DNA of 51,729 nucleotides from Candidatus Kapaibacterium sp. (GTDB lineage Bacteria; Bacteroidota; Ignavibacteria; Kapaibacteriales; UBA4661): NCBI GenBank assembly GCA_025358765.1, contig JANYIG010000135.1, positions 1 to 51,729 of the forward strand, given 5' to 3'. The notes under the pieces are model-generated. The model was not told the DNA's origin and searched no databases. It saw only the letters and a list, made by a program, of their open reading frames with translations. Below, in pieces: positions 10,200 to 43,874 of this stretch. Each line of letters begins with the position of its first letter. Position 1 is the stretch's first letter. Both the position numbers and the translations under genes were made by a program.

Positions 10200-11210
10200 C
10201 TATTGTTTTTGTGTAGTCAAAGAAGCTGTTGCAGCAGTCAAGTCCTTCCATATCAGTGCTGCTGCTCCCAACACGGCTGCGTTATGATTCATCAATGAGG
10301 ATACAAGCAATGTTGTTTTTCCTTTGAAGATGTGTAAGGTATTCTCTTCCATCGCTCGTTGTGTGGGCGCGAGAATCAGGTCGCCGGAGGCTGCTAACCC
10401 ACCAAAAAGGATAATTGCTTCGGGGCTGAAACATGCAATTACGTCCGCCAATTTGCGACCAAGCAATTCACCCGTTTGTTCAAACGCCCGATGAGCAATC
10501 ACATCACCTGCCAGTGCCGCACGGGCTATGTCGGCGGCGTTTATAGCGTTTGGTTCGGTTCTGCGAAAAATGCTATCGTCCGTGTATTCCGCCAAAAGGC
10601 TTAACACTGTGCGCCGAATCCCGCTTGCAGAAACGTATGTTTCCAAGCACCCGCGCCGCCCGCATCCACACATTCTACCGTTGGGATCAACAATCGTATG
10701 CCCAAGTTCTCCTGCAAAACCGTCCGCGCCGTATAAAACATCGCCATTAACCACAATACCACTTCCCAAACCCGTTCCGAGCGTGATGATGATAAAATGT
10801 TTCATGCCCCGCGCCGCGCCAAAGAGCATTTCGCCAAGAGCGGCGGCGTTCGCATCGTTCGTGAGTGCAACGGGAACCGCAAATTCTTCCTCTACAATCC
10901 GCTTCAAATGGACAACTTGCCCCCAATTCAGGTTTGGCGGTTGTTCGATTGTACCTGTGTAATAATTTGCGCTCGGTGCGCCGATACCGATGCCTTGCAA
11001 CACGCAGCGATCTTCGACATTGTGCCATAATAAGCGCATTCGGTCGTATAAACGCGGCAAAAAAAGCGTTATTGGTTCGTGAGCAAGTGTGGGAATGGTA
11101 TCGTCTGCAAGGCAATTACCATCACGGTCAACAATGCCAAAAGCTGTGTTCGTGCCGCCAATGTCAATACCAAATGTTACCTGTCGTAATGTGTTCTGAG
11201 GAGGAGTCAT
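10200..11210 (-). CDS. ROK-family sugar kinase
   Basis: This 336-residue ROK kinase has an N-terminal phosphate-binding DIGGTNT (16-22), the catalytic Asp in TNDANAA (Asp119), the sugar-binding ExGH in GELGHT (168-172), and the zinc motif CGCGRRGCLE (181-190). It would phosphorylate a hexose or N-acetylhexosamine with ATP in the cytoplasm. As the last gene of the glycosidase run, it is placed to handle mannose, GlcNAc or glucose released from glycans. ROK sequences do not fix the sugar reliably, so glucokinase, mannokinase and GlcNAc kinase all remain possible. Confidence 0.88.
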   Translation of the reverse strand: MTPPQNTLRQVTFGIDIGGTNTAFGIVDRDGNCLADDTIPTLAHEPITLFLPRLYDRMRLLWHNVEDRCVLQGIGIGAPSANYYTGTIEQPPNLNWGQVVHLKRIVEEEFAVPVALTNDANAAALGEMLFGAARGMKHFIIITLGTGLGSGIVVNGDVLYGADGFAGELGHTIVDPNGRMCGCGRRGCLETYVSASGIRRTVLSLLAEYTDDSIFRRTEPNAINAADIARAALAGDVIAHRAFEQTGELLGRKLADVIACFSPEAIILFGGLAASGDLILAPTQRAMEENTLHIFKGKTTLLVSSLMNHNAAVLGAAALIWKDLTAATASLTTQKQ

Positions 11211-11225
11211 ATTGATTTGTAGGAA

Positions 11226-12218
11226 TTAGCTTTTTGCATAATATTCAGCTTTAAATGTTGTGTGTTCGCCATTGCGATACAACGCCACAGTAAAATCTTT
11301 CGTCAGGCTAAATGCACCAATGTCGCCGTTTTTGCCCAGCGCAACAAATCCAACTTGAAGCTCTTTGTAATGAGTATTTTTTTTTGCAATACGCTCTATG
11401 GCAAGCTCACAGGCTTGTTGTGGAGTTTTTCCGCTTCGCATCAGCTCCGTCACCAAAAAACTTCCAACGGATTTGATCACAATTTCGCCAAGACCGGACG
11501 ACGTAACCGCACCAACTTCATTATCCACATACAAACCCGCGCCGATAATGGGTGAATCCCCCACACGCCCGTGCAGCTTAAACGCCCAACCACTTGTGGA
11601 GCAAGCGCCGGAAAGATTGCCGTTTTTGTCTAAGGCGAGCATCCCGATTGTATCGTGATTATCTTTGCTCACGTGCGGCAAGACAAGCGGCTTCTGCTGC
11701 TTTTTCCATTTTGACCACTCAGCTTTTGCATTCGGTGTGAGAAGATTTTCCCGTTTGAAACCATTTGCAAGGGCAAAATCGAGCGCACCTTTGCCCACAA
11801 GCATCACGTGTGGTGTTTTTTCCATCACGCGGCGTGCAACAGAGACGGGGTGCATAATTCCTTCCAAAGCAGCAACAGAACCAACATTGCCAAACTCATC
11901 CATCACCGAAGCATCAAGCGTGACAATGCCCTCACGGTCGGGTAAGCCGCCATAGCCCACGCTTGTATCGTTCGGGTCAGCTTCCGTAAGTCGTACCCCC
12001 TGCTCAATAGCGTCTAATGCCCGCCCACCCCGCTCCAACAGGGCAGCCGCCACACGATTAGCGGGAATATTCGGCTCCCACGTTGTGATGATAACAGGCG
12101 AACTTGCCGGAGTCGGTAACTTCATCTTGCCGTAAACGGCAGGTTCGGCAAGGGCAAGTGTTGCCGATGCAATTGCACCATGGACAAAATCACGCCGCGA
12201 AAAAGAAGAATTGCTCAT
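11226..12218 (-). CDS. N4-(beta-N-acetylglucosaminyl)-L-asparaginase (glycosylasparaginase)
   Basis: N-terminal-nucleophile hydrolase of 330 residues that cleaves the GlcNAc-Asn bond left after glycoprotein breakdown. The start at 12218 places a twin-arginine signal (SRRDFVHGAIASATLALA, 7-24) at the N-terminus, so export by Tat is likely. The longer reading to 12308 would overlap the GH92 gene. The autoprocessing site is NHDTIGML, with Thr190 as nucleophile after cleavage. GVRLTEADPNDTSVGYGG, the GSVAALEG region and HGRVGDSPIIGAGLY are conserved family segments. It sits directly downstream of the GH92 and GH2 mannosidase genes, as expected for N-glycan catabolism. Confidence 0.93.
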   Translation of the reverse strand: MSNSSFSRRDFVHGAIASATLALAEPAVYGKMKLPTPASSPVIITTWEPNIPANRVAAALLERGGRALDAIEQGVRLTEADPNDTSVGYGGLPDREGIVTLDASVMDEFGNVGSVAALEGIMHPVSVARRVMEKTPHVMLVGKGALDFALANGFKRENLLTPNAKAEWSKWKKQQKPLVLPHVSKDNHDTIGMLALDKNGNLSGACSTSGWAFKLHGRVGDSPIIGAGLYVDNEVGAVTSSGLGEIVIKSVGSFLVTELMRSGKTPQQACELAIERIAKKNTHYKELQVGFVALGKNGDIGAFSLTKDFTVALYRNGEHTTFKAEYYAKS

Positions 12219-12300
12219 AGAATTGTCGTCGTCGCAAGCATGGTTGCGGTTGATAAATGAAAGAATTATGCCGTCGTAGAGATAGTGTGTTGTCCTGTCC

Positions 12301-15300
12301 CTACTCAATCACAATCTCGTCAATAAAAATATATGCTTTGTTGCCAGCGCCTAAATGCCACGCGGGAATATCGCCGTAATTGCGGGCAATAAGTTTCACA
12401 TACCGTGCAGTTTGCGGCGCGATTTTTTGTGCAAATTGTTTTGTTATGACGGTATAATCGTTGTCGGGAACGTCGGTTCGTATCGTCGCAACGGGCAAAA
12501 ATACTGTTCCGTTGGTCGAAACGGAAAATTCCACCGTGCGTGGCATCCAAATCCACGGACGAATATCTTGCAAAAAGCCTGCACCAACGTTCGAGATGGT
12601 TTGCAGTTTGCCCAAATCCACAACCGCCTCCACATCCGTTCCCCAATAACCTTGCCACGCACCCGCGCGGAAATCCCTGTTGCCACGAATACCATCAATC
12701 AGAGCCATTGCGCCACCCGCGGCGTATTGCGGCACGAACGTCGAACGTGTTTGTATTGTCCATTCGCGGGACAAATTCATAAACTCGGCGCTGACCGGAA
12801 CACTTACGGATGTCGCACCACCGCTTATTCGTGCGGCAATTGCTTTCACCGTACAAGTTGTTCCGATGGTAAACGGTTTGGTGTACGGACGTGATGTTAT
12901 CGTTGGTTCACTGCCATCCGTTGTGTAAAAGATGCTCGCGGCTGTCTCTGCACAACGAATCTGCACGTCCATTGTTGTTTTGAACGTTCGCGCCGGAGCC
13001 AAAATCGAGGGCGATGGGAGAATGAGATAATCGTTGATGGATGACTGCGGTGCATCACGTTCTGCTCCGCCCCACATCATATTCGGTTTGTCGCCCATTG
13101 CAAATTCAAGTGTTCCGCCCCGCATTAGGTCTTCATGCTTCAAATACGACTGTGTATGAGGCTTGCCACCAAGCGAAGCGGATTGAATATACAAATTTTT
13201 TGCGGAAACGGCTGGCGCTTTGATGATAAAGGTTTTGCCGTTTTCAAGATTGATACGCGCTTCTTTGAACAATGGCGTTCCGATGGTATAGAACGGCAGC
13301 CCGGGCGTAACCTGATAGAACCCCAATGCGCTCAACACGTACCAAGCGGACATCTGCCCGCAATCCTCATTGCCCGGCAATCCGTCTGGCTTTGATGTAT
13401 AGAGGCTGTCCAAAATATGGCGAACCAATGCTTGCGTTTTCCACGGCTTGCGAACGTAGTTGTACAAATACGCCATATTGTGACTCGGTTCATTGCCCTG
13501 CGCGTATTGCCCAATCAAACCTGTAATGTCTGCTTGTTCGCGCCCCGTCGTGCGTGGGTCAGCGCTGAAGAGCGCATCAATCTTTGCTTCAAGTTTATCG
13601 TACCCACCGAGCAACCGCGCAAGCCCTTGAATATCTTGCGGAGCAAAAAAACTATAATGCCAACTGTTCCCTTCGGTGTAATTAAAATTTACCTCACGAG
13701 GGTCGAATGGCGCAAACCAGCCTCCATTCTGCCTACCGCGCATGAACGTGGTTTCAGGGTCGAACATGTTTTTGTAATACTGTGCTCGCTGAATATACGT
13801 TTTGTAATCAGATTCTTTATTGAGCTGTTTTGCCATAACTGCAAAACACCAATCATCATACGAATATTCCAACGTTTTCGACACAGATTCCGCTTCGTCT
13901 TCTACTGCTATGAATCCTTGTTTTTGGTAGGCTTCCAAGCCAAAATGTTTGAGCGTTGCACTGTGCTTCATTGCTTCCAATGCTTTCTCCATATCAAACC
14001 CTCTGCCGTCTTCGGCAATGCCTTTAGCGGCAGCATCGGCAATAACAGAAACGGAATGATAGCCAATCATACAATCTGTTTCGTTCGCAGCAAGCTCCCA
14101 CACAGGCAGCCGCCCGCCTTGCTCGTAGTGCGTCAGGAACGTATTGATAAAATCCTTTGTGCGCTTTTGGTCAATGATGGTGTAAAGCGGGTGCGCCGCA
14201 CGAAACGTGTCCCAGAGAGAAAAAATTGTATATTCAGTGTGCTTGCTTGCCGTGTGAATGCGTCCATCCAAGCCACGATAGCTCCCGTCAATATCACTAA
14301 AAAGATTTGGTGCGCTCATTGCGTGATACAGCGACGTGTAAAATGTTCGCATCTGTTCTTCCGAGCCGCCGGACACTTCTATTTTGCGTAGTTCTTTGTT
14401 CCATGCGGCTTGCGCGGCGGAACGAGCATGTTCAAAATTCCCATCTTTAAGTTCCGCTTCAAGATTTTTCCGCGCACCTTCGATGCTCACCGCAGAAATA
14501 CCCACTTTGACGATGATGGCTTCGTTGGCTTTTGTCTCGAAACGCACAAACGCTTTCAGATTTTTCCCGTCAGCCTCACGCAATGGTACCTGAAGCGTGT
14601 CGTTCACCGCAATGCCAGACGCAACAAAGGGTTTAGAAAATTCCGCCACAAAATAAACATGTTGGTCACGCGCCCAAGCATCCGAGCGACGGAAACCTTC
14701 CAACCGATTATTGCCGACAATTTTCACGCTCGACGCAAGCACTTTGTCGCGGTGCAGCAAATCCAGAATGATTGTCGCCTGTTTTGTTGCGGGAAACGTG
14801 TATTTGTGCAATCCCGTACGTGGCGTGGCGGTCAATTCCACATCTATGCCGTCATCGTCAAGGCGCACGGCATAATAACCCGGATGTGCTTTTTCGGTGC
14901 TATGACGGAAAGCAGAATCATAGCCGGAGACAGCTGCTTTTTTCGGATTGCCTTGCGGAGCGTTTACAAACTGCGGTTCGCCTACCATGGGCATGAACAA
15001 AATATCGCCGTAATCCGAAACGCCTACACCGCTTAAATGTGTATGGCTAAAACCATATATCACGGAATCTGAATAATGATACCCCGAACAACCATCCCAG
15101 CCATCAAGCCGCGTATCAGGACTAAGTTGCACCATTCCGAACGGCGTGGTTGCTCCCGGATACGTATGCCCGTGACCACCAGTACCAACAAACGGGTTTA
15201 CATAGCGCGTATAATCAGCTTTGCCGGAGACAGAAGATTTATTTTTTGATTGAGCAAAAAGCAAATTTGTTGATATGCCGAAGGCGGCAAGGGCAAAGCA

Positions 15301-15360
15301 ACAAACAAGTGCGATGCACGAGCAAAGGCGCGAAGAATGGTTTTTCATAACGTTTGTCAT
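12301..15360 (-). CDS. GH92 alpha-mannosidase with chitobiase-C-like and F5/8C-like C-terminal modules
   Basis: This 1019-residue exported enzyme has a signal peptide (about 1-37, ending FAQS). The GH92 domain (about 50-765) starts with YVNPFVGTGGHGHTYPGA and contains the probable general acid in YTEGNSW (Glu563) and the acidic pair in GNEDCGQMSAWY (665-666). GH92 enzymes are Ca2+-dependent exo-alpha-mannosidases acting on N-glycans. About 250 residues follow the catalytic domain: a chitobiase-C-like module (IFYTTDGSEPT; about 790-865) and a discoidin-like module (about 880-1019). The ATG shares one base with the GH2 stop (TAATG), so translation is coupled. Linkage specificity (alpha-1,2, 1,3 or 1,6) cannot be read here. 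Confidence 0.94.
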   Translation of the reverse strand: MTNVMKNHSSRLCSCIALVCCFALAAFGISTNLLFAQSKNKSSVSGKADYTRYVNPFVGTGGHGHTYPGATTPFGMVQLSPDTRLDGWDGCSGYHYSDSVIYGFSHTHLSGVGVSDYGDILFMPMVGEPQFVNAPQGNPKKAAVSGYDSAFRHSTEKAHPGYYAVRLDDDGIDVELTATPRTGLHKYTFPATKQATIILDLLHRDKVLASSVKIVGNNRLEGFRRSDAWARDQHVYFVAEFSKPFVASGIAVNDTLQVPLREADGKNLKAFVRFETKANEAIIVKVGISAVSIEGARKNLEAELKDGNFEHARSAAQAAWNKELRKIEVSGGSEEQMRTFYTSLYHAMSAPNLFSDIDGSYRGLDGRIHTASKHTEYTIFSLWDTFRAAHPLYTIIDQKRTKDFINTFLTHYEQGGRLPVWELAANETDCMIGYHSVSVIADAAAKGIAEDGRGFDMEKALEAMKHSATLKHFGLEAYQKQGFIAVEDEAESVSKTLEYSYDDWCFAVMAKQLNKESDYKTYIQRAQYYKNMFDPETTFMRGRQNGGWFAPFDPREVNFNYTEGNSWHYSFFAPQDIQGLARLLGGYDKLEAKIDALFSADPRTTGREQADITGLIGQYAQGNEPSHNMAYLYNYVRKPWKTQALVRHILDSLYTSKPDGLPGNEDCGQMSAWYVLSALGFYQVTPGLPFYTIGTPLFKEARINLENGKTFIIKAPAVSAKNLYIQSASLGGKPHTQSYLKHEDLMRGGTLEFAMGDKPNMMWGGAERDAPQSSINDYLILPSPSILAPARTFKTTMDVQIRCAETAASIFYTTDGSEPTITSRPYTKPFTIGTTCTVKAIAARISGGATSVSVPVSAEFMNLSREWTIQTRSTFVPQYAAGGAMALIDGIRGNRDFRAGAWQGYWGTDVEAVVDLGKLQTISNVGAGFLQDIRPWIWMPRTVEFSVSTNGTVFLPVATIRTDVPDNDYTVITKQFAQKIAPQTARYVKLIARNYGDIPAWHLGAGNKAYIFIDEIVIE

Positions 15361-18101
15361 TAGTACGAATCAATAAGCGATTGAAGAAGAAGTAATTGAC
15401 GCAGGGCATCAGGTTCAATATCAGCATTTTGGCGCAGAGCATGAGCGCCTACAGGCATGACGGTTACTCGTCGAATCTCGCCCGGAAGCAGGTCGAAAAA
15501 ATTATCGCTAAAATGAACTTCACCCTCACGGAGGCTTAAGTACACATTTTTCGCAAGGGTATTTGATTGCAGTTCAATAACCGTGCGACCGCTCTCGCCG
15601 CTTATCTTCACGCTTATTTGCGGTTTGGAAAGTGCAGCATCTTTCGGCTGCGTGAAATACACCAAGCGCTTTGCAAGCGTCGAAGCATTATTCCCTGCTC
15701 CGCTTTTGAACTCTGCAACCAACACCGTCCGCGAACGGTCAGCCACGCCTAACAGAGCGGCTTCTGGTGTTGTGAATACGACTGAGCTTGCGTTGGCACG
15801 AGCCACAACGGGCAGGGAACTTGACCAAAGTTGTGTTCCGTCGAACGAAAGCAACCGTAATTCCAGCATCCCGCTCACATCGGTCAAACGATCAGAAACG
15901 AGATAAAGCTCTAACGAATCCTTGCCGTCTCCGGCACGATGACGGTGAGCAGAAAGTGCTACGTCCGCAAACAAGTCACGAACGGCGTAATGCAGCGCCT
16001 TCCAGCGCCCAAAATAATCGCGGCTCGACCACGACGTGACTTGCCAGCAATCGTTGAGCTGCCAATACAGGGTTCCCATACAATACGGTTTGGCGCGGCG
16101 GTGTGCTTCGATGGCGGTTGTTATGCCTTTTGCTTGCAGCAATTGTGTGACGTACACGTATTGCTCAAAGTTTTTGGCAGGTTTGTAATCGCGTTCCAAA
16201 TACGCTTGAATACTCGCGTAACCTGTAGGGTGCTTCTGGTGCGCCTTCATTGTAGCGGAGCTAATACTCAATTCTTCGATGCTTAACGAATTTGGTGCTG
16301 AGTTCGGTGCCGAGTTCGGCATGGCAAATGTTTTGATTGTCAGCATCGGTGGACACGCTTGCATCCCGTATTCAGACATAAAACGCCCTACTTTTTCTTC
16401 GTAGCGCTCGAACGGCTCCAAACCCCACCACACGCCCCAATAATGTGAATCTCCTTCGAGCATACTTTCAGCACGCCCCCAACCATGTTGCGGCGACGAA
16501 CGCCAGTAAAAACGCTGCGGGTCGTGTTCGGCAACAGCAGCCGGTAATACGTCGTGAAATATACGTTCGTACCAACTCCAGATTCGCGCGGAATCGGCAG
16601 AGGAATAGCCATATTGTTTTTGCCAACCCCAATTATGCCACGCCTCATCAATTTCATTGTTGCCACACCAAAGCGCTATACATGGGTGATTCCGCAAACG
16701 TTTTACGTTATCTATTGCCTCTTGTCGAACATTTTCCACAAACGCGCTGTCGCCCGGAACCATCGCACAGGCAAACATAAAATCTTGCCATACTAAAATA
16801 CCCTGTTCGTCGCAAAGGTCGTAGAATTCATCCCGTTCGTAGGTTCCCCCGCCCCACACTCGGAGCATGTTCATATTCGCCATTGCCGCATCGCTCACCA
16901 AACGGCGATAATCCTCTGTGGTCACACGCGGCAAAAAACTGTCCGGCGGAATATAATTTGCGCCCTTCATAAACACAGGAACACCGTTCAAACGCACCAT
17001 AAAACTTTGCCCTGCTGGCTTTGATGCCGAATTCGGCGCAGTATCTTTTTTCTGATCTTTTTCCTGCACAATCTCAAGTGTCCGCAATCCAATCCGCGTC
17101 GTGGCAGAATCCAACACGCGTTTTCCCACTCCATTTTCGACTATATCGCAGTGAATCGAATATAAATGCGGTTTGCCCAAACCGTTGCACCACCACCTCT
17201 GCGGGTTATTGAGTGAACACTTTATTACCACACGGTTTGAGCCTTTTTGCAACGTGACGCGCTGCTTATTCAATTCTACCCCAAAAAGGTTTATTCCGGC
17301 AGGTTGCCGAAGTCGGCAACGTTCGGAGACGTGAACCGTTGTCGTCATCGGACGTGCAGCACGAATTTCAGCAATCACGCTCAACCGCGCTTCTTTGTCC
17401 GTGAGCGATTGTTGCACCACGTGAACCGATTCCAAGTGTACCCCACTCCACGCCTCCAAATGTACCGATCGCCAAATGCCACACGTAATAAATCGCGGAC
17501 CCCAATCCCAACCATAATGATACTGGGCTTTACGGCTCCATACTTTTCCCGTAGAATCATCGCCACCAAGCGTAAACGGAATTTGCTTCGTAAGGGCAGC
17601 ACCACGCGTTGTTGCCGGGTCGAACACCACACGTATTGTGTTGTTGCCTATTTTCAAATACCGCTTGCTATCAATCCGCCACGTGCGAAACATATTATTC
17701 GCTTGCAACACCGACACATTATTGATGTAAACGTGAGCATATGTATCCAAACCCTCAAATACAAGCTCCACTGCGTCGTTGGCGAGCAGCGCCGCAGAAC
17801 ACATAGTCGTTGTTTCATATTCCCACGATTCGCGCTCCACCCACTGAACGCGAGATTCATTCACACCTTCAAAAGGGTCAGGAATAATGCCGTGCCGCAA
17901 CAAATCTGTGTGAATCGTACCGGGAACCGTCGCTGCAAACCAGTGCATACTTAATTTGCCGGTGCCAATTTTGCGAAAACGCCAACCGTCCTTAATAGGA
18001 ATAGTGGTCATGGCAATAATGTCTGTAGCACCTGCACACAATAGGCAACATCCTGCACACAATAACCAGCGCGACCAATATGAAAAAAATACGTGCTTCA
18101 T
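15360..18101 (-). CDS. GH2 beta-mannosidase
   Basis: This 913-residue exported enzyme removes beta-mannose from non-reducing ends, including the Man-beta-1,4-GlcNAc of the N-glycan core. It has a signal peptide (about 1-30), a sugar-binding domain opening with DGWRFRK and ATVPGTIHTDLL, the sandwich domain with HYGWDWGPRF, and the TIM barrel. The general acid/base is in WCGNNEIDEAW (Glu483) and the nucleophile in FMSEYGMQ (Glu577). A short repetitive PNSAPNSAPNS segment sits inside the barrel region after the nucleophile and is probably a surface loop. Its ATG overlaps the CutC stop by four bases (ATGA), and its stop overlaps the GH92 start. Confidence 0.94.
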   Translation of the reverse strand: MKHVFFSYWSRWLLCAGCCLLCAGATDIIAMTTIPIKDGWRFRKIGTGKLSMHWFAATVPGTIHTDLLRHGIIPDPFEGVNESRVQWVERESWEYETTTMCSAALLANDAVELVFEGLDTYAHVYINNVSVLQANNMFRTWRIDSKRYLKIGNNTIRVVFDPATTRGAALTKQIPFTLGGDDSTGKVWSRKAQYHYGWDWGPRFITCGIWRSVHLEAWSGVHLESVHVVQQSLTDKEARLSVIAEIRAARPMTTTVHVSERCRLRQPAGINLFGVELNKQRVTLQKGSNRVVIKCSLNNPQRWWCNGLGKPHLYSIHCDIVENGVGKRVLDSATTRIGLRTLEIVQEKDQKKDTAPNSASKPAGQSFMVRLNGVPVFMKGANYIPPDSFLPRVTTEDYRRLVSDAAMANMNMLRVWGGGTYERDEFYDLCDEQGILVWQDFMFACAMVPGDSAFVENVRQEAIDNVKRLRNHPCIALWCGNNEIDEAWHNWGWQKQYGYSSADSARIWSWYERIFHDVLPAAVAEHDPQRFYWRSSPQHGWGRAESMLEGDSHYWGVWWGLEPFERYEEKVGRFMSEYGMQACPPMLTIKTFAMPNSAPNSAPNSLSIEELSISSATMKAHQKHPTGYASIQAYLERDYKPAKNFEQYVYVTQLLQAKGITTAIEAHRRAKPYCMGTLYWQLNDCWQVTSWSSRDYFGRWKALHYAVRDLFADVALSAHRHRAGDGKDSLELYLVSDRLTDVSGMLELRLLSFDGTQLWSSSLPVVARANASSVVFTTPEAALLGVADRSRTVLVAEFKSGAGNNASTLAKRLVYFTQPKDAALSKPQISVKISGESGRTVIELQSNTLAKNVYLSLREGEVHFSDNFFDLLPGEIRRVTVMPVGAHALRQNADIEPDALRQLLLLQSLIDSY

Positions 18102-18874: not shown

Positions 18875-18901
18875 ACAGACGGCTTCCGTCAATTGTTTTT
18901 G

Positions 18902-29367: not shown

Positions 29368-29853
29368 TCACGTTGTTTCGTCTTTGTGAGCGCCGCGCCG
29401 TAAGCGACCACCGGCTGATTCATATACCCCAGCAGCTGGCACAAGTTCTGCAACCTTGCCCAAACCACGCGGCGGCATGTTATTATACACCGTTTCGTAA
29501 TTTCCGGCGGTAATGACATAGGTTTCATGCCAGATGCCCACGTCGCCATTACTTCTGATGGCTCGGTTAAACGCCCTCCACGCCGGATAATGCTGCCCGT
29601 CTTTATCTTTGGCATAGCGCTCCAAATGCTCGAACGACCGCCAATATTGGATGGAAGTTCCTCCACTGCTCTCATATCCCAAAAAACCGCTCTCCGGCTT
29701 TGCTGCAAGCTCCTTGAGCATTCTGGGCATTGCCAGCGCTACTGGCAGCCATTTGTGAATTTTCCAAAACTGATTAATGCGCATTCCAATCAGAAAAACG
29801 ACAAAATCGCCTTCAATTTTTGCCGCCATGCGTTGGTTGATAATTGCTGCCAT
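29368..29853 (-). CDS. DUF4188 family protein (monooxygenase-like)
   Basis: This 161-residue protein starts [26 protein letters not shown] and contains [26 protein letters not shown] and [21 protein letters not shown], the standard DUF4188 segments. These belong to a ferredoxin-like fold related to phenylacetaldoxime dehydratase and ABM-type monooxygenases. Reaction unknown. It lies between GH47 and the SGNH hydrolase with short gaps of 11 and 4 nt, so it is within the operon. Confidence 0.85.
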
Positions 29854-36163: not shown

Positions 36164-36302
36164 TGCGAGATTTGCTGGCTTCGGCAAGGTCATTATTTGG
36201 CTCATTGTTTCGTAAGGATAGTGGTTGAACACAGTCGCTTATGCGAATCAGCATCATTTCATCGTGAATATGTATTCTTGAAGGCGAGAGGAAAACGGCG
36301 GT

Positions 36303-36339
36303 AAAAAGTGACCCACAAAAAAACTATTTTGTGGGTCAC
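36303..36339 (-). terminator. Intrinsic terminator after susD
   Basis: Perfect 13-bp stem: GTGACCCACAAAA (36308-36320) and its complement (36327-36339) with a six-base loop. On the minus strand it is followed by TTTTT (36303-36307). It lies between the SusD stop and the VCBS gene, so it would reduce downstream transcription relative to susCD. Confidence 0.8.
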
Positions 36340-36383: not shown

Positions 36384-37964
36384 CTATTGCTTATCCCACC
36401 ACACGCGACCTGTAAGGACGTTACCACCAGTAATGCGACCGACAGCCTCACTGTAATTGGTAGCATTTGCTGAGGATTCCAAGGCAGGATAGACCAAACG
36501 GCGCGGGATTGTACCATTCGTTGCATTACCCGGATACACAACAGGTGTGAGTTTCGGATAACCAGTGCGTCGCCAGTTCGACCACGCTTCAATATCGTTC
36601 AGATAGGTTGCTACCCAAAACTGCGTATTGATTTGTTCCAATTTCTCATCCGTCGAACCAGCCGATTTGAATGGATTTGCTTTGAGGAACGCATCGGTCT
36701 CCGCCTGCGTAATCACTGCACCAGCGCTAAATTGTTGGATAGCTTGCATTCCTTCGCTCACGGCTTCTTGGTACAAAACATCGGCACCTTTGCCAACGTT
36801 ATAACCACGAACGGCTGCCTCTGCCAACAAAAGTTTCACTTCCGTTGAAGTAATGATAAACGTTGGTCCATCCATCCGTGCAACGGTTTTGTTGTTCGGG
36901 CGAGTGTATTTATCAATCGAACCAGGATAACCCGGAGCTTTGGAAAGATCTGTTGCCGCGCCTCCAAGGTCGTACCCATTGGGCATGCCAAGCTGGTCAT
37001 CCAACTTTGTGCTAAGGTCTCCGGCACGTTCACCGAGCCACTGCAAACGAGGGTCTTTATTTGTCTTCAGCAAATCAACAAATGTTTTACTCAAGCGCAA
37101 GACGGTAATTTCATACCCAAGATTCATTACTTGGCTCAGACGATTTACGGTTGCGCGGTCGCCGCCGATATCGTGAGTAACAAACGCATTATCATTAGCA
37201 TTTTGGAATACACCGCCTGCTACTGCTTTTTCTACCCATGTTTTTGCGCCAGCCGCGTCAACTTTGCTCAAACGCGAACCCAAGCGTACCATCAACGAAT
37301 ACGCGAGCTTCCGCCATGCAGCCACACGAGCCGTGCCGGAGATTCTACCGTAGAACAAATCACCGTTAGGCATTGGCTCGGCATCGCTCAAGCCTTTTGC
37401 TGCTTCATCCAATTCTTTCAACATATCGGCGTAGATAGCAGACTGTTGGTCGTATTTCGGGGTAAACGAACCACCGTAATAACCACGGCCACCGTCGAAA
37501 TACGGCACATCGCCGTAAATATCGGTCACTCTGTGGAAAATAAGCGCACGAATAATCCGCGACATTTGGTACAGGTTTTTATACTGTGCTTTACCTTTGG
37601 TTTGTTCGACCAAATGCTGCACGGGGCGGATTTGTTCGTCGTACGCACGTTCAAAATAGGAAGCGGCATAACCCGAATTCAGGTTGTATTTATCTCCTGC
37701 CCAGTATCCTTGAACGGTAGCAAAATGCTGAATCATCACCGAACAATAGATAAGGTTTGTTCGCCATGTTTCATAGCTAAAATCTGTGCTTCCCGTGTAA
37801 GTAAGCTGCGACGTGGTCAATAAATATTCCGCGTTGAACGAGTTGTCATCGGGGCGCACCGGGTCGGTGTTTAATGCCTCGAAGTCCTTTGTACATCCCG
37901 TTGCCATAAGCATGACAACCGCGAACGCGACAAAACTTCTGTAATATTTGATACTCAAGTTCAT
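36384..37964 (-). CDS. susD: SusD/RagB-like outer-membrane nutrient-binding lipoprotein
   Basis: Protein of 526 residues from the ATG at 37964. It begins with a lipoprotein signal (MATGC, Cys24) and then DFEALNTDPVRPDDN, the usual SusD N-terminus. The helical body resembles the SusD-like_2 type (YFERAYDEQIRPVQHLVEQ; KLLLAEAAVRGYNVGKGADVLYQEAVSEGMQ; the late IEAWSNWRRTGYPKL). It binds oligosaccharide or glycopeptide at the cell surface and hands it to SusC. It is 88 nt downstream of susC on the same strand. The N-glycan ligand is inferred from the enzymes in the locus. Confidence 0.94.
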   Translation of the reverse strand: MNLSIKYYRSFVAFAVVMLMATGCTKDFEALNTDPVRPDDNSFNAEYLLTTSQLTYTGSTDFSYETWRTNLIYCSVMIQHFATVQGYWAGDKYNLNSGYAASYFERAYDEQIRPVQHLVEQTKGKAQYKNLYQMSRIIRALIFHRVTDIYGDVPYFDGGRGYYGGSFTPKYDQQSAIYADMLKELDEAAKGLSDAEPMPNGDLFYGRISGTARVAAWRKLAYSLMVRLGSRLSKVDAAGAKTWVEKAVAGGVFQNANDNAFVTHDIGGDRATVNRLSQVMNLGYEITVLRLSKTFVDLLKTNKDPRLQWLGERAGDLSTKLDDQLGMPNGYDLGGAATDLSKAPGYPGSIDKYTRPNNKTVARMDGPTFIITSTEVKLLLAEAAVRGYNVGKGADVLYQEAVSEGMQAIQQFSAGAVITQAETDAFLKANPFKSAGSTDEKLEQINTQFWVATYLNDIEAWSNWRRTGYPKLTPVVYPGNATNGTIPRRLVYPALESSANATNYSEAVGRITGGNVLTGRVWWDKQ

Positions 37965-38052
37965 GGTAGTTTCAAAAAGTTGACGCAATGCGCCAAGTTC
38001 ATAATTGTTAATTAGAAAAAAACACTGCAAACGCATTTCCATGAAATTCGCC

Positions 38053-41000
38053 TTAGAATTTCACATTGAGGTTGAACCCAATAGCACGCGTTGGCGGCAC
38101 ACCAGCAAGTTCAAGACCTTGAGCATTGCTTACATTGATGTTTGTCTCAGGATCAATGTTTGGTGTCTTTTTCATAAGAATTGCCAGATTACGAGCCACA
38201 AGCGACAACGTTATTTTTTTAACGGGTGTGCTTTCTAACCATGATGTCGGAAGATCATATCCAAGACTGACTTGACGAAGTTTGATGAAACTTGCGTCAT
38301 AGACAAACGGGGTGCCTATTTGTCCACCGATACGACCATAATAGCTTTGAATAAGTCCTGGTGTAACAAGTTTTGTGTTTGCTTTTCCATCTTCGGTAAC
38401 ACCAACACCAGTAATACCAGCATCACGACCCGGCAATGTTTCTTTATGCAAACCAAATTGGTACAAGTACGCATTGGTAGCAGAGTAGATTTTGCCGCCG
38501 AATTTGAAGTCAATCAACACACCCAAACTAAAGTTACCGTAGCGGAAATCATTTTCCCAACCACCCGTGTAAGGATGAACGCCACTGCCCATAGACACCA
38601 AATCACCTTGTTTCGGCAAACCATCGGCATCATAGACGATAGCGCCATTTTTATCACGAGCAAAATCATTCACGACTATTTGCGAAAATTCTTCACCAAC
38701 GCGGTGTTGAATAAACGCTACTTGTGTGCGTGATTGTGCAACGGTTAAGCTGGTTTGACCTTCAGCAAGAGCAACAACTTTGCTATTGTTCACACTAAAA
38801 TTGAACGAAGATGTCCAACCAAAGTCTTTTTCTTCGAGAATTTTACCGGAAATCAAAAGTTCAACACCAGTATTTTGTAGTTGACCATTGTTAATAATTG
38901 CCGATTGGAACCCAGACGTAGCCGAAACAGTTGCCGTAACAATCTCGTTTTTCGTATCTTTTTGATACCATGCCGCATCAATCGTAAGGCGGCTGTCAAA
39001 TAATCTCAACTCCAAACCCACTTCTAATTCCGAAACGCTCAACGGCTTCAGTTTTGTGTTAGGTAGAATATTGTCGAAACCACCGATAGGATTACCACTA
39101 ATTTTGCTGGCGTTGATGTTATAGTAGAGCTTCGTTGCGTAAGGGTCGGTATCGCCACCCACTGTTGCATACGCCACACGAATTTTACCAAAGGAGAGCC
39201 AATCTGCTTTAAGTGCTTCAGAGAAGACAAAACTACCGCTCAAAGAAGGATAAAGGTACGCGTAGTTGTCTTTGGAAACTGTAGAGAACCAATCATTACG
39301 AGCCGTTGCGTTCAAAAACAACATTTCTTGAAACGATAATTCTACTGAACCATAGACTGATTGCACTTCTTTTTGGAAAATACGATAGCTCGGTACGCTC
39401 GTGATAGCATACTGTGGATTGTAAATATCGGGGAATACAAGAGAGTTACCCGCAGCGCCATATGCTTCTGTTTTTGACTTTCTAACGCTTGCACCGACGG
39501 AAGCTGCGAGAGAAATATCGTTCGTTAATTCTTTATCCATGCCCAACAACGCATCAGCATTCACTTCCGATGTTGTTTGGCTGGTCTTATTCACACTACC
39601 AAAAGAACCAGTTGATAGATATGCTGTGCCTGCCGGAGTAATGCTGTTGGTCTGGAATGTGAAGTAATCCTGTCCAACACGACCTTGCAGATACAACCAA
39701 TCCGTAAGATTGTACTTCACGTTTGCCGAAGCAATAATTCTATTCTTTTGCGTCGCGTTCAAAAACTTGTACGCTGCAAAGTATGGATTGGTCACAAATG
39801 GATTGTCGGTAAAGTCCGTCAACTCGTGAAGGTATTGGTCAGTGCCGTTTCCATTCGGACCTTTAAGAATAGAAGCACTCATGCTTGTTGGCAGTATGCC
39901 GATAGCAAAATTACCATTGCCGGGAGAGTCACTTTGCCCCGGGCGATTGGTTGCGTTCTCGGTAGTGTAAATCACGCTGGCTTCACCAGACAGTTCCGGC
40001 GACAGTTTGAATGTTGTTCCAGCATTAAATGTTTTTCTGTTCAGGTCGCTATTTGGGTAAACGCCAGTATTACTCAGGTTAGAAGCCGACAATCGGTAGT
40101 TCGTACTTTCACTACCACCGCCGACAGCAACCGTATTCGTCCACGTGAGACCACCTCTGTAATAATCGCTTAGATTGGTGGATTGAAGGGAATATGGGCG
40201 AGAGACTCCATCGAATTGCACAACGCTGCTACCGTCCAATTTCGCACCCCAACTTGACAACCCAGCTACTCTTGCACTTGCAGCACTTGTTGGTTTGTTA
40301 CCTCGTACCCCTTGTCCGTATTGGTCTTGTTTATCAGAATAATCACGGATGCTTTCAAAAACCATATTGGAGTTGAATTCAACACCAATACCCTTTTCGC
40401 CGCCTTTGCCGCGTTTGGTTGCGATGATAATCGCCCCATTTTTTGCACGTGAACCGTACAACGCAGCAGCCGTAGCACCTTTAAGGACGTTCATGCTTTC
40501 AATGTCGTCTGGGTTGAGGGATGAAATACCATCACCCGCATCAAAACCACCCCACTGACCAGCACTGCCAAGATTACTGTTATCAATAGGAATACCATTG
40601 ACAACATACAAAGGCTGATTATCGCTCGAAATGGAGGTATTACCACGAATAACAACTCTGGATGAACCACCGGCACCCGAAGCAGGCGCACTAACATTCA
40701 CCCCAGACACCTTGCCGACCAACGCATTGGCAACGTTGGTTTCACGAGCTTGTGTCATCTCGTTGCCTTTAACAACAGCAGTCGAGTAGCCAAGTTTTTT
40801 TGATTCTTTTTTAATACCGAGAGCCGTTACAACAACATCTTCAAAGAGTTTCCAATCAACTTCCATTGAGACACTGATACTGCTTTTTCCAGCAATAGGA
40901 ACTTCCACCGTTCGATACCCGATAGACGAAAATACTAATGTTCCTTGCGGGTCGGAAAGCGGGAATTTGAAATTTCCTTCTTTATCGCTGATTGATCCTA

Positions 41001-41574
41001 CTCTACTACCTTTAAGCCGCACAGTTACTCGTGGCAAACCGACGTTTGATTCTTTATCAATAACCTTTCCAGAAATCGTTGCATCCTGTTGTGGTTGCGA
41101 TAACTTTTCTACGAGCATCGGTGATTCATTGATTGCGGCAGATGCTGAGAGTTCTTTCAAGGACTCTGCATTATTGCTTTGTTCTGCCACGAGTACGTTT
41201 TTTTTTGCGCTACCAACCTCTGTATCATTGCTACGAATAACAAAGGTGTCGTTATCAATCTTCTTGCAACGCAAATTCGTACCAGCCAATATTTGGTTGA
41301 GTTTTTGCTCAACATTATCGCCCGTTTTGATTGTATTGTCATTATTGACATACACATCGCGAATCAAAACAGCATTATGATTAAAACGTAATCCTTGTTT
41401 TGTTGACAAGTCATCCAATAAAGTTTTTAACGGCACATTATTATTGTGTTGCCCGCTATTATCAGCGAATCGTTGTGCTAATGCTTGTGCTGTTGCGACG
41501 TGCGAAACGCTCATCGCCAGCATAAGACTGAATAAGCAGAGCTTTGAACGGAAAGAGTACCTAAAGGTATTCAT
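38053..41574 (-). CDS. susC: SusC/RagA-type TonB-dependent outer-membrane transporter with STN domain
   Basis: Protein of 1173 residues from the ATG at 41574. It has a signal peptide (to about VATAQA), then an STN domain (about 45-100, VPLKTLLDDLSTKQGLRF) that typically contacts an anti-sigma factor. A carboxypeptidase-regulatory-like domain follows (SGKVIDKESNVGLPRVTVRLKG). The plug carries VVVTALGIKKESKKLGYS, GVNVSAPASGAGGSSRVVIRG and LKGATAAALYGSRAKNGAIII, and the beta-barrel ends in aromatic LNVKF. Presence of STN with neighbouring FecR and ECF-sigma genes fits trans-envelope signalling on substrate uptake. The substrate is inferred to be glycan or glycopeptide. Confidence 0.96.
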   Translation of the reverse strand: MNTFRYSFRSKLCLFSLMLAMSVSHVATAQALAQRFADNSGQHNNNVPLKTLLDDLSTKQGLRFNHNAVLIRDVYVNNDNTIKTGDNVEQKLNQILAGTNLRCKKIDNDTFVIRSNDTEVGSAKKNVLVAEQSNNAESLKELSASAAINESPMLVEKLSQPQQDATISGKVIDKESNVGLPRVTVRLKGSRVGSISDKEGNFKFPLSDPQGTLVFSSIGYRTVEVPIAGKSSISVSMEVDWKLFEDVVVTALGIKKESKKLGYSTAVVKGNEMTQARETNVANALVGKVSGVNVSAPASGAGGSSRVVIRGNTSISSDNQPLYVVNGIPIDNSNLGSAGQWGGFDAGDGISSLNPDDIESMNVLKGATAAALYGSRAKNGAIIIATKRGKGGEKGIGVEFNSNMVFESIRDYSDKQDQYGQGVRGNKPTSAASARVAGLSSWGAKLDGSSVVQFDGVSRPYSLQSTNLSDYYRGGLTWTNTVAVGGGSESTNYRLSASNLSNTGVYPNSDLNRKTFNAGTTFKLSPELSGEASVIYTTENATNRPGQSDSPGNGNFAIGILPTSMSASILKGPNGNGTDQYLHELTDFTDNPFVTNPYFAAYKFLNATQKNRIIASANVKYNLTDWLYLQGRVGQDYFTFQTNSITPAGTAYLSTGSFGSVNKTSQTTSEVNADALLGMDKELTNDISLAASVGASVRKSKTEAYGAAGNSLVFPDIYNPQYAITSVPSYRIFQKEVQSVYGSVELSFQEMLFLNATARNDWFSTVSKDNYAYLYPSLSGSFVFSEALKADWLSFGKIRVAYATVGGDTDPYATKLYYNINASKISGNPIGGFDNILPNTKLKPLSVSELEVGLELRLFDSRLTIDAAWYQKDTKNEIVTATVSATSGFQSAIINNGQLQNTGVELLISGKILEEKDFGWTSSFNFSVNNSKVVALAEGQTSLTVAQSRTQVAFIQHRVGEEFSQIVVNDFARDKNGAIVYDADGLPKQGDLVSMGSGVHPYTGGWENDFRYGNFSLGVLIDFKFGGKIYSATNAYLYQFGLHKETLPGRDAGITGVGVTEDGKANTKLVTPGLIQSYYGRIGGQIGTPFVYDASFIKLRQVSLGYDLPTSWLESTPVKKITLSLVARNLAILMKKTPNIDPETNINVSNAQGLELAGVPPTRAIGFNLNVKF

Positions 41575-41845
41575 AGCGTTACAGTCCTTTTGAAACTGTG
41601 AATGGAGTACGTGGATTAAGTGTAATGGTAGCACGGCAATGTATCGTATTATTCACGAACTATATTCCGCCATATAGTTGCTCTCGGGTGCGGATCCAAA
41701 AGCGTGTGAATGAGATGCTTACAAATGTGACTACCCCGATATATGTGCAGTAGAAGTAGAAAACACGCTTGTTTTCTGGCTGACCCAACCGAAATTGCCT
41801 ACTACTTCGGCAAAAACCGGATGTGCCCGTGTTGTTGCGCTAAAT
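41575..41845 (-). promoter_or_regulatory. susC upstream region with two perfect inverted repeats
   Basis: The gap between fecR and susC holds two perfect hairpins: AACTATAT (41659-41666) with its complement (41673-41680), six-base loop; and AGAAAACA (41758-41765) with its complement (41770-41777), four-base loop. Neither is followed by a T-run on the minus strand, so a role as operator or UTR structure is more likely than termination. The ECF-dependent susC promoter should lie here, but I cannot place it with confidence. Confidence 0.5.
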
Positions 41846-42943
41846 TTATCGCTCTTGCAAACGATTAATAGAGATTGTTGTGCCATCGCGGGAAATCTGA
41901 AGCTGGAATGACTCTGCGATTGCAGTCATAAGGAGGTTTACATTATCTGTCGGCACATTGCCTGTAAAAAGCAATTGTGCAAGCCCTTTATCGTGAAATC
42001 TTATATCGAGATCGTAATTTTCTTTGAGGGTTTGAGCGACTTCGCTAAGCGGAGTGTCTTCAAACAGGAATTTGTCGTCCTTCCACGAAGAAAAAAGTTC
42101 CGTTTTTACTCGCTTTTTTATCAATGTACGTTTGCCGTCTTCGGCATGGCATCGTACTTCAGATGCTTCACCCGGCAAAAGCTCAATCGGGCTAACGTTT
42201 TCTTGCGATGAACGTAGCCGTATTTTCCCCTCGTTTAATACAACCATTGTTCTGTTTCGGCGCGTGTTCACGTTAAATTCTGTCCCTAACACTTCCACCA
42301 TCGCATCGGCGGTTTGTACATGAAATTTCACGGGATTGCCGGAAAACTGCTGTTTAGACACTTTAAAAAATGCCTCACCTTTAAGAATTACTTCACGGTC
42401 AGAGGCAGGGTTCCATTGGTACGACAACTCAGAATTGGCATTAAGGACAACCTCGGAACCGTCCGGCAACGTAAGAGTCTGCGTTTCACCAAATGTTGTT
42501 GCGTACTGTACGGACGACGGTGACGACTTGTAATAGAGTACATAAATCATTGAGCATATAAGAACCGCAATTGAAGCTGCAGCTGCCCAATAATAGCGCT
42601 GGCGGTTTACTATCGTCTTCGGCAGGTGCAACAGTGTGAATATCCGTGGACGCGCAGACTTTGCTGCTCCGGCGATGCTGGCGCTTTGTTGTGTGCGAGA
42701 CACATTTGTTGCCTGAATACGTTGCCATAGAGTCTGTTGAGTAGCCTCGCTGGCTACAACAGCATTCACACGAAGGCTCGTGACGAGACTGCGAGCCTCC
42801 TTGATAAATTCTCGTTGCTCGGGGTTTTCCTGAAGCCATTGCTCCCACTGACGAGAAGCCTCTACATCGGAACCCCGCACGAATGCGCGAAATGATTCGT
42901 CCGATGCTACTTCAACGACCGATGTGTAGTGTTTATTATTCAT
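41846..42943 (-). CDS. FecR-family anti-sigma factor
   Basis: Protein of 365 residues from the ATG at 42943, immediately after a GTG that would add one residue. It has a cytoplasmic N-terminal part for sigma binding, one membrane helix (about 118-138, AAAASIAVLICSMIYVL), then the periplasmic FecR domain (TFGETQTLTLPDGSEVVLNANSELSY; EAFFKVSK; VEVLGTEFNVNT). A C-terminal DUF4974 domain ends near FQLQISRDGTTISI. It lies between the ECF sigma gene and susC, the standard arrangement for signal relay from SusC's STN domain. Confidence 0.95.
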   Translation of the reverse strand: MNNKHYTSVVEVASDESFRAFVRGSDVEASRQWEQWLQENPEQREFIKEARSLVTSLRVNAVVASEATQQTLWQRIQATNVSRTQQSASIAGAAKSARPRIFTLLHLPKTIVNRQRYYWAAAASIAVLICSMIYVLYYKSSPSSVQYATTFGETQTLTLPDGSEVVLNANSELSYQWNPASDREVILKGEAFFKVSKQQFSGNPVKFHVQTADAMVEVLGTEFNVNTRRNRTMVVLNEGKIRLRSSQENVSPIELLPGEASEVRCHAEDGKRTLIKKRVKTELFSSWKDDKFLFEDTPLSEVAQTLKENYDLDIRFHDKGLAQLLFTGNVPTDNVNLLMTAIAESFQLQISRDGTTISINRLQER

Positions 42944-43262
42944 CACAATACCTTACAATAAAAAGACGTAGTTAGCTACTTTCGATCAGCCATTTTTGGC
43001 TTTGTTCATTCTCAAAAAAAATCCCCGCTCTCTTTGGTGTTTCCGGCAACACCGTAAAACATTCTATAGAGCGGGGATAAGGAGTCGCTACGAAGAAGCT
43101 CTACAAACTGCTAAAGGGAGCTTCTACAAAAATCTCTACGATTGTGGTAAAAAAACTTTAAACTATTTTGAATTACTGGAGTGTGGTAAAAAAACAAGCT
43201 CCTGACACTTGGCGAGTCTATAGGAAGGGAGAGCTATAGAGAGTACACTTTGACGTATTGCG
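42944..43262 (-). promoter_or_regulatory. 319-bp sigma-fecR intergenic region with hairpins and direct repeats
   Basis: No gene is seen here. Besides the terminator at 43014-43078 it contains an inverted repeat GAAGCTC/GAGCTTC (43095-43101 and 43118-43124) and a perfect 14-nt direct repeat TGTGGTAAAAAAAC at 43143-43156 and 43182-43195, 39 nt apart. The spacing and AT content suggest a regulatory leader or protein-binding sites, but I cannot name a factor. A promoter for fecR downstream of the terminator is likely. Confidence 0.45.
43014..43078 (-). terminator. Branched intrinsic terminator between sigma and fecR
   Basis: Outer 11-bp perfect stem (ATCCCCGCTCT 43021-43031 with complement 43068-43078) enclosing a second hairpin, GGTGTT/AACACC (43036-43053). 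On the minus strand it is followed by a run of eight T (43014-43021). It would end or attenuate the sigma transcript before fecR. Confidence 0.75.
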
Positions 43263-43874
43263 TCATAGTAGAACGTGGAGCAGAAAAATATTGACCAGAA
43301 CAATTATCCCCATCAACAACGTACCTGCGTTTGCCTTTAATGTTGCCAAGGCTCGATAGATAAAATTATAGACTGTTTCAATTTCCACATTCATTGTTTC
43401 CGCAATTTGTTTGTGCGTAAATTCCTCATAATAGGCAAGATACAGCGCTTCTTTTTGTCGTTTCGGCAATTCAGCTATCAGTTTTTGGAGCTTTTGTTGA
43501 ATTTCTTTTGTTGCGTCGTCTTCAATAAGAGATAATTCGTGCGAGGGAATAATCTCAAACTCAAAGGTGGGCAACAAACTTTCTGACGACACAAGGTTTT
43601 TCCGTTGCTCAATCGTACCAACAATTAATCTTCGGAGCGAGCGAAATAAATAAAATTTTATGGATGTGGTGGCACCAAGCGTTTTGCGGTGTTCGTAGAG
43701 ATAGACAAACAAATCATGAATACAATCCTCCACAACTTCTTTGTTGCGATGTAGATGGTAGGCATAGCTATAGAGTTCTCGAACATAGTTCGTATATATC
43801 ATCTCATACGCCCGCTCATCCCCAGAGCGGAACGCATCCCAGAGTAATTCGTCTGTAAACCCAGGGTCTGGCAT
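43263..43874 (-). CDS. ECF-type RNA polymerase sigma factor with C-terminal hydrophobic tail
   Basis: This 203-residue protein has sigma region 2 (about 22-90; AYHLHRNKEVVEDCIHDLFVYLYEH) and region 4 (about 125-180; LPKRQKEALYLAYYEEFTHKQIAETMNVEIETVYNFIYRAL), typical of SusCD-linked ECF factors. The last 20 residues (about 184-203) are strongly hydrophobic and could form a membrane helix or associate with the FecR transmembrane segment. Such tails occur in some Bacteroidota ECF factors. It probably activates susC and downstream genes once FecR is relieved. Confidence 0.93.
   Translation of the reverse strand: MPDPGFTDELLWDAFRSGDERAYEMIYTNYVRELYSYAYHLHRNKEVVEDCIHDLFVYLYEHRKTLGATTSIKFYLFRSLRRLIVGTIEQRKNLVSSESLLPTFEFEIIPSHELSLIEDDATKEIQQKLQKLIAELPKRQKEALYLAYYEEFTHKQIAETMNVEIETVYNFIYRALATLKANAGTLLMGIIVLVNIFLLHVLL

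Follow-up and report, generated by a model that had tools for sequence, protein, structure and literature searches.

We analysed a 51,729-nucleotide stretch of Candidatus Kapaibacterium sp. DNA (assembly GCA_025358765.1, contig JANYIG010000135.1), referred to below as the window; it makes up the whole of contig C142 in a 4.86-Mb genome assembled as 362 contigs. NCBI taxonomy places Kapaibacterium in the Bacteroidota, class Eximiradiia. Nineteen open reading frames (ORFs), all on the minus strand, fill the window from position 43874 down to 10200, beginning with an extracytoplasmic function (ECF) sigma factor gene and ending with a ROK sugar kinase gene. We consider it likely, at a probability of roughly 70%, that this block is a polysaccharide utilization locus (PUL) under ECF-sigma control, directed at peptide-borne high-mannose N-glycans, and that it sits on, or derives from, a Rep3-ParAB plasmid in a bacterium of a Kapabacteria family. 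An initial annotation had described a single same-strand locus headed by ECF, FecR, SusC and SusD genes, and this description held: every family that it had named was recovered in place on the minus strand, each above its Pfam cut-off. Genes for a carbonic anhydrase, a GDSL esterase, a PAP2/haloperoxidase-like protein and an FG-GAP/ASPIC-UnbV protein had not been listed in it.

The ECF sigma factor gene (43263..43874; Pfam Sigma70_r4_2, E 2.8e-16, and Sigma70_r2, E 2.9e-7) is followed by a gene for a FecR-type anti-sigma factor (41846..42946; FecR, E 2.5e-18, and FecR_C), and the two adjoin the gene for a SusC/RagA outer-membrane importer (38053..41634), as in ECF-controlled SusCD loci. SusC scored 598.6 bits against TIGR04056 (cut-off 368), and its N-terminus carries a weak STN-like stretch (PF07660, 15.9 bits, under the cut-off of 28.4). 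Only 10 bases separate it from the gene for a SusD-type surface lipoprotein (36384..38042; SusD-like_2, E 6.8e-74) with the lipobox ATGC, and the SusD-like model, like TIGR04056, exceeded its cut-off. Here and throughout, export signals and lipoboxes were judged with a crude script. A terminator-like hairpin (36308..36339, minus strand; a 13-pair stem followed by TTTTT) lies 3' of SusD, so the whole block may not form a single transcript, and SusCD and the enzyme genes may differ in expression level. Across the window there were 26 terminator-like sites, compared with 20.6 ± 4.8 in shuffles, and a promoter scan found 27 promoters where 31.5 were expected.

The carbohydrate enzyme genes lie beyond SusD (E values are from Pfam). 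They encode a GH47 alpha-1,2-mannosidase (29865..31256; E 1.2e-120), a GH123 protein (26001..27740; GH123_cat, E 1.9e-50), a chitinase-like GH18 protein with the motif DGVDMDWE (24978..25973; E 2.2e-50), a GH20 beta-N-acetylhexosaminidase (22394..24781; E 2.5e-121), a GH3 protein that is a probable lipoprotein (20066..22336; lipobox LVGC; recognized by Pfam), a GHL10 putative hydrolase (18902..20047; 35.7 bits, cut-off 27.9), CutC (18098..18892; E 1.6e-73), a GH2 protein of the beta-mannosidase type (15360..18101; Glyco_hydro_2_N2, Mannosidase_ig and Ig_mannosidase), a GH92 alpha-mannosidase (12301..15360; E 1.7e-182), a glycosylasparaginase (AGA; 11226..12308; PF01112) and the ROK sugar kinase (10200..11210; E 3e-65). 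The last seven genes, from GH3 to ROK, look like one translation unit because the gaps between them range only from −8 to +18 bases. The GH123 protein had been described as an unclassified DUF4091 hydrolase; its domain, PF13320, which we take to have been renamed from DUF4091, is the GH123 catalytic domain, and the protein is hence a classified one.

The other genes of the block stand among these. Directly after the hairpin come an FG-GAP/ASPIC-UnbV repeat protein gene (32678..36232; FG-GAP_3, E 6.5e-78, and UnbV_ASPIC, E 2.8e-21) and a gene for a PAP2/vanadium-haloperoxidase-like protein (31287..32693; PAP2, E 4.1e-10, with VCPO_2nd under its cut-off), which overlap by 16 bases. This overlapping pair (31287-36232) also adjoins GH47 in another genome of the same family, G005 (locus L038). 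Between GH47 and GH123 lie genes for a GDSL esterase (28650..29708; Lipase_GDSL_2, E 2.2e-27), whose true start is probably near residue 115, judging from a hydrophobic stretch that appears only at residue 131, and for a beta-type carbonic anhydrase (27820..28500; Pro_CA, E 6.8e-56).

Predicted enzyme subtypes and locations

The hydrolases, GH47 and GH2 among them, have export-type N-termini, and AGA and GHL10 carry a twin-arginine motif. CutC, the ROK kinase and the carbonic anhydrase show no export-type N-terminus and look cytoplasmic.

AGA matched the Elizabethkingia glycosylasparaginase (PDB 3ljq) at 356 bits (E 1.5e-105), compared with 135 bits (E 2e-38) for isoaspartyl peptidases, and its processing site, H218, D219 and T220, is kept in at least 95% of 22 aligned sequences. 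We assign it, as a predicted activity, to the glycosylasparaginase subtype and not to the isoaspartyl peptidases. The GH47 family is best known from the eukaryotic secretory pathway. The GH47 protein of the window scored 240.7 bits against human endoplasmic reticulum (ER) mannosidase I and 238.8 bits against a Caulobacter enzyme. E123, D250, E366 and T450 are invariant in 8 aligned bacterial sequences and are matched in human ER mannosidase I; we take the first three to be the catalytic acids and T450 to be the calcium-binding threonine. The Caulobacter relative is reported to cleave alpha-1,2-mannobiose (PMC10685318).

For GH92, the best PDB matches were 6f8z (E 4.5e-193), 6f91 (E 3.4e-184) and 7zgm (E 2e-177). 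BT3130 (6F8Z) and a B. massiliensis GH92 enzyme are reported to be alpha-1,3-mannosidases (PMC9522356), and we infer that 7zgm is that B. massiliensis enzyme. Alpha-mannosidases that could trim the antennae, GH47 and GH92, are thus both present by profile and PDB matches, and a division of labor in which GH47 acts on alpha-1,2 and GH92 on alpha-1,3 linkages would be sensible. The genome carries three GH92 genes in all.

The remaining enzymes gave less specific matches. GH18 is the weak point: it was closest among solved structures to 6xyz, a "candidate chitinase" (E 5e-36), with endoglycosidases far behind, and it is a candidate for the endoglycosidase starting the pathway. GH3 resembles beta-glucosidases and xylosidases, with all NCBIfam equivalogs under cut-off; the ROK kinase scored 223.7 bits against the TIGR00744 glucokinase family, under the cut-off of 260; and GHL10 had no PDB sequence match at E 0.01. 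As the initial annotation had proposed, the set as a whole fits the breakdown of high-mannose N-glycans down to N-acetylglucosamine-asparagine (GlcNAc-Asn), with AGA matching true glycosylasparaginases, and would give a near-complete pathway.

Replicon genes and host

A ParB-ParA-Rep3 module, absent from the initial annotation, lies on the minus strand directly beyond the ECF end of the locus. The ParB-like partition protein gene (44043..44801) lies 168 bases from the ECF gene and is followed by genes for a ParA partition ATPase (44801..45652; AAA_31, E 2.9e-57) and a Rep3 replication initiator (45779..46906, with a likely start near 46731; Rep3_N, E 1.4e-14, and Rep3_C, E 2.1e-13). Upstream of the likely rep start, on the plus strand, is an iteron-like repeat of two exact tandem 22-bp copies (46831..46874). 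A Rep3 initiator adjoining ParA and ParB is the arrangement of Rep3 plasmids, with ParB_N itself below its cut-off here (21.5 bits; cut-off 26.3). Eight of the family's 10 genomes (our own and 7 of 9 others) contain relatives of this Rep3; of 89 more genomes from the same order, 2 do.

The source genome has four Rep3 initiators, each adjoining ParA and ParB (contigs C142, C349, C324 and C125). Just upstream of the rep gene in the window starts a giant plus-strand ORF (47150-51727) with 15 TIG and 4 NHL stretches, which leaves the contig. At the far end of the window, genes for an aldehyde dehydrogenase, a DHDPS-family enzyme and an AraC regulator are adjacent (173-3655); the set presumably resembles a hydroxyproline-type pathway.

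Two genomes of the same family hold related material. G005 has ASPIC-PAP2-GH47 and GH47-GDSL-carbonic anhydrase-GH92-GH123 on two contigs and a 78% identical SusD on a third, in a fragmented assembly; one of its contigs is, in reverse complement, identical to the public record JANYDO010000014 (Candidatus Kapaibacterium sp.). A 43-kb contig from another genus, G007:C58, carries AGA-GH2-CutC-GH20-SusD-SusC together with two-component regulators, ROK, GH92 and GH123. Its locus adjoins ParB-ParA, and a Rep3 initiator 29% identical to that of the window lies on the same contig, so this sister genus repeats the combination of a PUL with Rep3-ParAB. No GH47 match was found in the G007 genome.

We then compared tetranucleotide profiles by correlation with 20 pieces of the genome itself (3 of them read as N). 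The whole window correlated at 0.91. Nine of the genome's own 7- to 20-kb pieces, left out in turn, gave 0.77 to 0.93, and five Bacteroidota GH47 loci gave 0.20 to 0.62. G007:C58, a related Kapabacteria contig, reached 0.86, so composition cannot separate the genome itself from a near relative.

CutC beside glycosylasparaginase

In a sample of 395 genomes of the phylum, the matches listed placed CutC in 122 other genomes and a strong AGA (down to about E 2e-79) in at least 148; both were listed for 105 genomes, compared with 46 expected by chance, an excess that shared ancestry inflates. The two genes lie within 2 kb of each other in 56 of the 105 genomes, from 11 of the 20 families concerned, where random placement would give about 0.15, and in 43 genomes AGA is directly upstream of CutC on the same strand, less than 300 bases away. 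At the same distance in the same genomes, the control pairs GH47-CutC and GH47-AGA were found in 0 of 13 and 8 of 20, respectively. In the window, CutC and AGA are 5.8 kb apart within one gene run, and on three Hymenobacter plasmids the annotated AGA and CutC genes overlap by 4 bases. Of 16 genomes with GH47 loci whose titles mark them as acidobacterial, 15 also contained CutC.

We viewed the CutC regions of ten plasmid records. Two, from Hymenobacter, had been picked from the AGA search and so contain AGA by choice; the other eight were annotated, nonenterobacterial records from the best 40 of 58 CutC matches. In six of these eight, CutC stands amid amino-sugar genes: NagA, NagB, ROK or BadF kinases, MurNAc-6-P etherase and GH20. 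The six are alphaproteobacterial plasmids (L269, L270, L271, L273, L274 and L275), and Gfo/Idh oxidoreductases also occur among the CutC neighbors there. The neighbors in the Parabacteroides and Cetobacterium records, the other two of the eight, were not amino-sugar genes. Among the annotated CutC neighbors listed for the ten records there were no copper genes, and one record has an RND efflux set. Where CutC stands away from AGA, we sampled 20 loci (CutC was recognized in 18, and 61 of 72 neighbors were scanned, covering the first 25 of 108 families), and the 18 shared no theme beyond two NagB-type matches, two PIG-L-type matches and one GH2 match.

Across 21 aligned CutC proteins, most of them AGA linked, thirteen polar residues, E14, R33, E35, C37, R68, R70, E80, T128, H130, R131, D134, S157 and H207, are each conserved in 20 or more. 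All thirteen are found in human CutC as well (3iwp, E 3e-72), which by sequence is the nearest relative with a solved structure. A two-sequence AlphaFold model (pLDDT 71, pTM 0.72) gave a TIM barrel, whose fold neighbors besides CutC were general TIM barrels (PdxJ, hexulose-phosphate synthase, KGPDC, OMP decarboxylase and pyruvate kinase). Such a fold is compatible with catalysis and shows no function.

We put at about even odds the idea that CutC is a cytoplasmic TIM-barrel enzyme of amino-sugar breakdown, not a copper protein, and is coupled to glycosylasparaginase in Bacteroidota. AGA leaves the glycosylamine 1-amino-GlcNAc, and this, or a GlcNAc-derived phosphate or keto intermediate, might be the substrate. 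That CutC is instead a copper protein merely travelling with AGA, with no part in sugar breakdown, seems to us the lesser possibility. Its annotation says so, 49 of the 105 genomes do not have CutC and AGA within 2 kb, the 18 unlinked CutC genes share no theme beyond the few matches given above, and two of the eight plasmid records have unrelated neighbors. It sits poorly, however, with the linkage across 11 families and the empty GH47-CutC control, with the amino-sugar neighbors in the six alphaproteobacterial records, and with polar residues held invariant on a TIM barrel down to human CutC. The old copper phenotype of cutC, moreover, would be explained by the promoter of the small RNA MicL. 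That promoter is reported to lie in the E. coli cutC region also (PMC8216713).

No paper in our literature search mentioned CutC along with either glycosylasparaginase or aspartylglucosaminidase, subscription papers and the long systematic name of the enzyme lying outside its reach, and further CutC searches gave no link of this kind among the entries listed. The pairing offers a specific and cheap test for a widespread protein, present also in humans, whose function is unsettled and whose copper role is doubtful, and the testable hypothesis of CutC as an amino-sugar enzyme is the most valuable result of this work. If it is true, human CutC would be a forgotten metabolic enzyme.

The N-glycan reading, its alternatives and known systems

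From the observed gene content and order, signal-like N-termini, conserved family residues, replicon genes and comparative linkage, we predict activities, substrate and regulation as follows. SusD and SusC would capture glycopeptides or released chains and take them up, and a relay from SusC through FecR to the ECF sigma factor would turn the locus on. In the periplasm, GH47 would strip alpha-1,2-linked mannoses and GH92 other alpha-linked branches, perhaps alpha-1,3. GH18 (or GHL10) would split the chitobiose core, GH2 would cut Man-beta-1,4-GlcNAc, GH20 would free beta-linked GlcNAc, and AGA, exported by the twin-arginine route, would cleave the final GlcNAc-Asn bond. Mannose and GlcNAc would then enter the cytoplasm, where the ROK kinase would phosphorylate both and CutC might handle an amino-sugar intermediate.

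A number of observations count against a plasmid-borne N-glycan locus of this kind. The terminator-like hairpin stands directly after SusD. The second-best GH92 match, 6f91, is labeled alpha-1,2, so GH92 need not be specific for alpha-1,3 linkages. GH18 scores as a chitinase (59 bits for ChiD and 24.7 bits for Endo H, both far under cut-off), and it is not obvious what GH123 and GH3 would do on a plain high-mannose glycan. As the initial annotation had noted, there is no obvious fucosidase or alpha-1,6-mannosidase: the genome gave no match to GH29 fucosidases and none to GH125 alpha-1,6-mannosidases, in searches that took in neither GH38 and GH76 nor other fucosidase families. No PNGase was among the 30 window proteins scanned with Pfam, a search that was confined to the window. 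The ends of the contig do not overlap and one ORF runs off the end, so the contig may not be a free, circular plasmid. Finally, the replicon end (43.9-51.7 kb) correlates at just 0.535 with the genome, compared with 0.77 to 0.86 for the other four window segments, so this end may have another origin or be a misjoin.

Another target would be a fungal or algal wall of mannoprotein and chitin, with GH18, GH20 and GH3 acting on chitin oligomers and GH47 and GH92 on alpha-mannan. We regard this as unlikely. The "candidate chitinase" nearest to GH18, the resemblance of GH3 to beta-glucosidases and xylosidases, and the GH76 and GH125 genes beside a related locus on a Hymenobacter tibetensis plasmid would fit it, but an AGA of the glycosylasparaginase subtype lies where the operon is most closely packed, the GH2 beta-mannosidase suits the N-glycan core, GH47 is closest to N-glycan-trimming enzymes, and no endo-alpha-mannanase was among the Pfam-scanned window proteins.

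The setting of the locus is a separate matter. It is possible, though we lean against it, that the PUL is chromosomal; Rep3-ParAB would then be the trace of a plasmid that has integrated or decayed, or would belong to a second chromosome, and there would be no free plasmid. Ordinary metabolic genes occupy the left 10 kb of the window, and the closest Rep3 relatives, in G007, G002 and G004, lie on contigs of 92 to 240 kb with no ParAB detected in 20-kb stretches; the missing terminal overlap and the deviating replicon end would also fit. Against this, Rep3, ParA and ParB stand side by side with intact reading frames, PUL and Rep3-ParAB occur together again in a second genus, with a divergent Rep3, and complete circular Hymenobacter plasmids hold a related locus, one with Rep3 about 7 kb from GH92-ROK-AGA-CutC. 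Far less probable is that the contig was misbinned or misjoined, so that the PUL, or the PUL and the replicon genes, are foreign to this genome. The 362-contig assembly has 2.31% contamination, the replicon end correlates poorly, and a closely related donor is possible, given the value reached by G007:C58; yet the whole window and its other segments correlate well, genomes of the same family have syntenic parts, and GH47 is 85% identical to that of G005. By composition and same-family synteny, misbinning is unlikely for the PUL and less certainly so for the replicon end.

The initial annotation had considered GH47 under a SusCD sensor to be part of a different design. GH47 itself is not rare: it matched in 41 of the 395 phylum genomes, our own included (E ≤ 0.001), and 31 others matched strongly. 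In the loci of these 31, taken up to 20 kb on each side, GH92 matched in 14, AGA in 9, both in 8 and SusC or SusD in none. Among 79 named GH47 loci (up to 10 kb per side, both flanks in 30 of the 79, and including G005's own contig), one had a SusC match nearby. The two sets overlap, and since GH47 was recognized in only 26 loci of the first and 71 of the second, these counts are lower bounds. The SusC count used the window's own SusC as the query; the window's own SusD misses another SusD type, one of which Pfam found at locus L120, and our claim is hence limited to SusC matches. At L120 (Lentimicrobiaceae, 1-11272), an ECF-FecR-SusC-SusD-GH65 set is divergent from GH47 and about 0.9 kb away.

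SusC/SusD genes also lie within 20 kb of GH47 on two named plasmids, Persicobacter pPP6 and Flammeovirga p1. We rejected these as parallels: GH47 there stands beside glycyl-radical enzymes, and the other enzymes of our locus are not annotated beside it. Bacteroidota GH47 loci with 61 to 71% identity, many apparently from lakes by their isolate names, had no other window gene in the fetched flanks (tblastn, E 1e-10), so our locus was not taken from them as a unit. GH47 within a SusCD locus thus appears to be uncommon but is not unique.

Comparison with known loci did not support a wholly different design. B. theta PUL72 and PUL16, which act on high-mannose N-glycans, are reported to share the ECF sigma/anti-sigma pair, SusCD and GH18 with the window, and PUL72 also GH92; PUL72, unlike the window, leaves a trisaccharide that is finished by enzymes encoded elsewhere (PMC11180146). 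In the main text of that paper, the terms "GH47," "asparaginase" and "CutC" do not occur. For the host, no susCD was reported from the carbohydrate-active enzyme gene clusters of the Ca. Kapabacteria metagenome-assembled genomes in a study of straw-degrading paddy soil (PMC10576277), and our locus would extend N-glycan PULs to a Kapabacteria family and bring GH47 into a SusCD system.

The closest counterpart in gene content is on the circular 119-kb plasmid unnamed3 of H. tibetensis KACC 21982 (NZ_CP094672), which, like the window, has SusC-SusD (44 and 48% identical), GH18 (43%), GH20 (43%), AGA-CutC (49 and 45%), ROK (30%) and GH92 (46%), with ECF and FecR (34%) nearby. It differs, over the 45 of 119 kb compared, in having no match to GH47, GH123, GHL10, GH2, GH3, ASPIC or PAP2, and it adds NagB, an MFS transporter, LacI and, along with GH76 and GH125, a second SusCD set, of which the FecR is part. 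We know of no published name for this locus. A second plasmid, NZ_CP095062 of H. volaticus, has GH92, ROK, AGA-CutC and GH2, and it is here that a Rep3 initiator lies about 7 kb away. Because this core recurs on Hymenobacter plasmids and PUL72 and PUL16 share the ECF-SusCD plan, our locus would be a more complete version of a known type, on a sort of plasmid that recurs. What remains unusual is GH47 within a SusCD locus, the Kapabacteria-family host and the Rep3-ParA-ParB module 168 bp from the sigma gene. The recurrence suggests that plasmids, some of the Rep3 type, carry loci for glycoprotein digestion across Bacteroidota.

Two further systems resemble the locus in part. One family (f35; G123, G134, G138, G149, G185, G193, G249 and G260) has a compact GH92-GH47-AGA operon, the order being seen in the five genomes displayed. 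As in the window, GH47 and AGA belong to one locus, within 2 kb of each other in 8 of 8 genomes; unlike the window, the operon has no SusC/SusD match within 20 kb, and its AGA is 50 to 53% identical to ours. In the vertebrate lysosome, a single compartment brings together alpha- and beta-mannosidase, beta-hexosaminidase, aspartylglucosaminidase and a GH18 chitobiase to break down N-glycans. The set encoded in the window would work in the same way, but with alpha-mannosidases of other families and with bacterial import and regulation.

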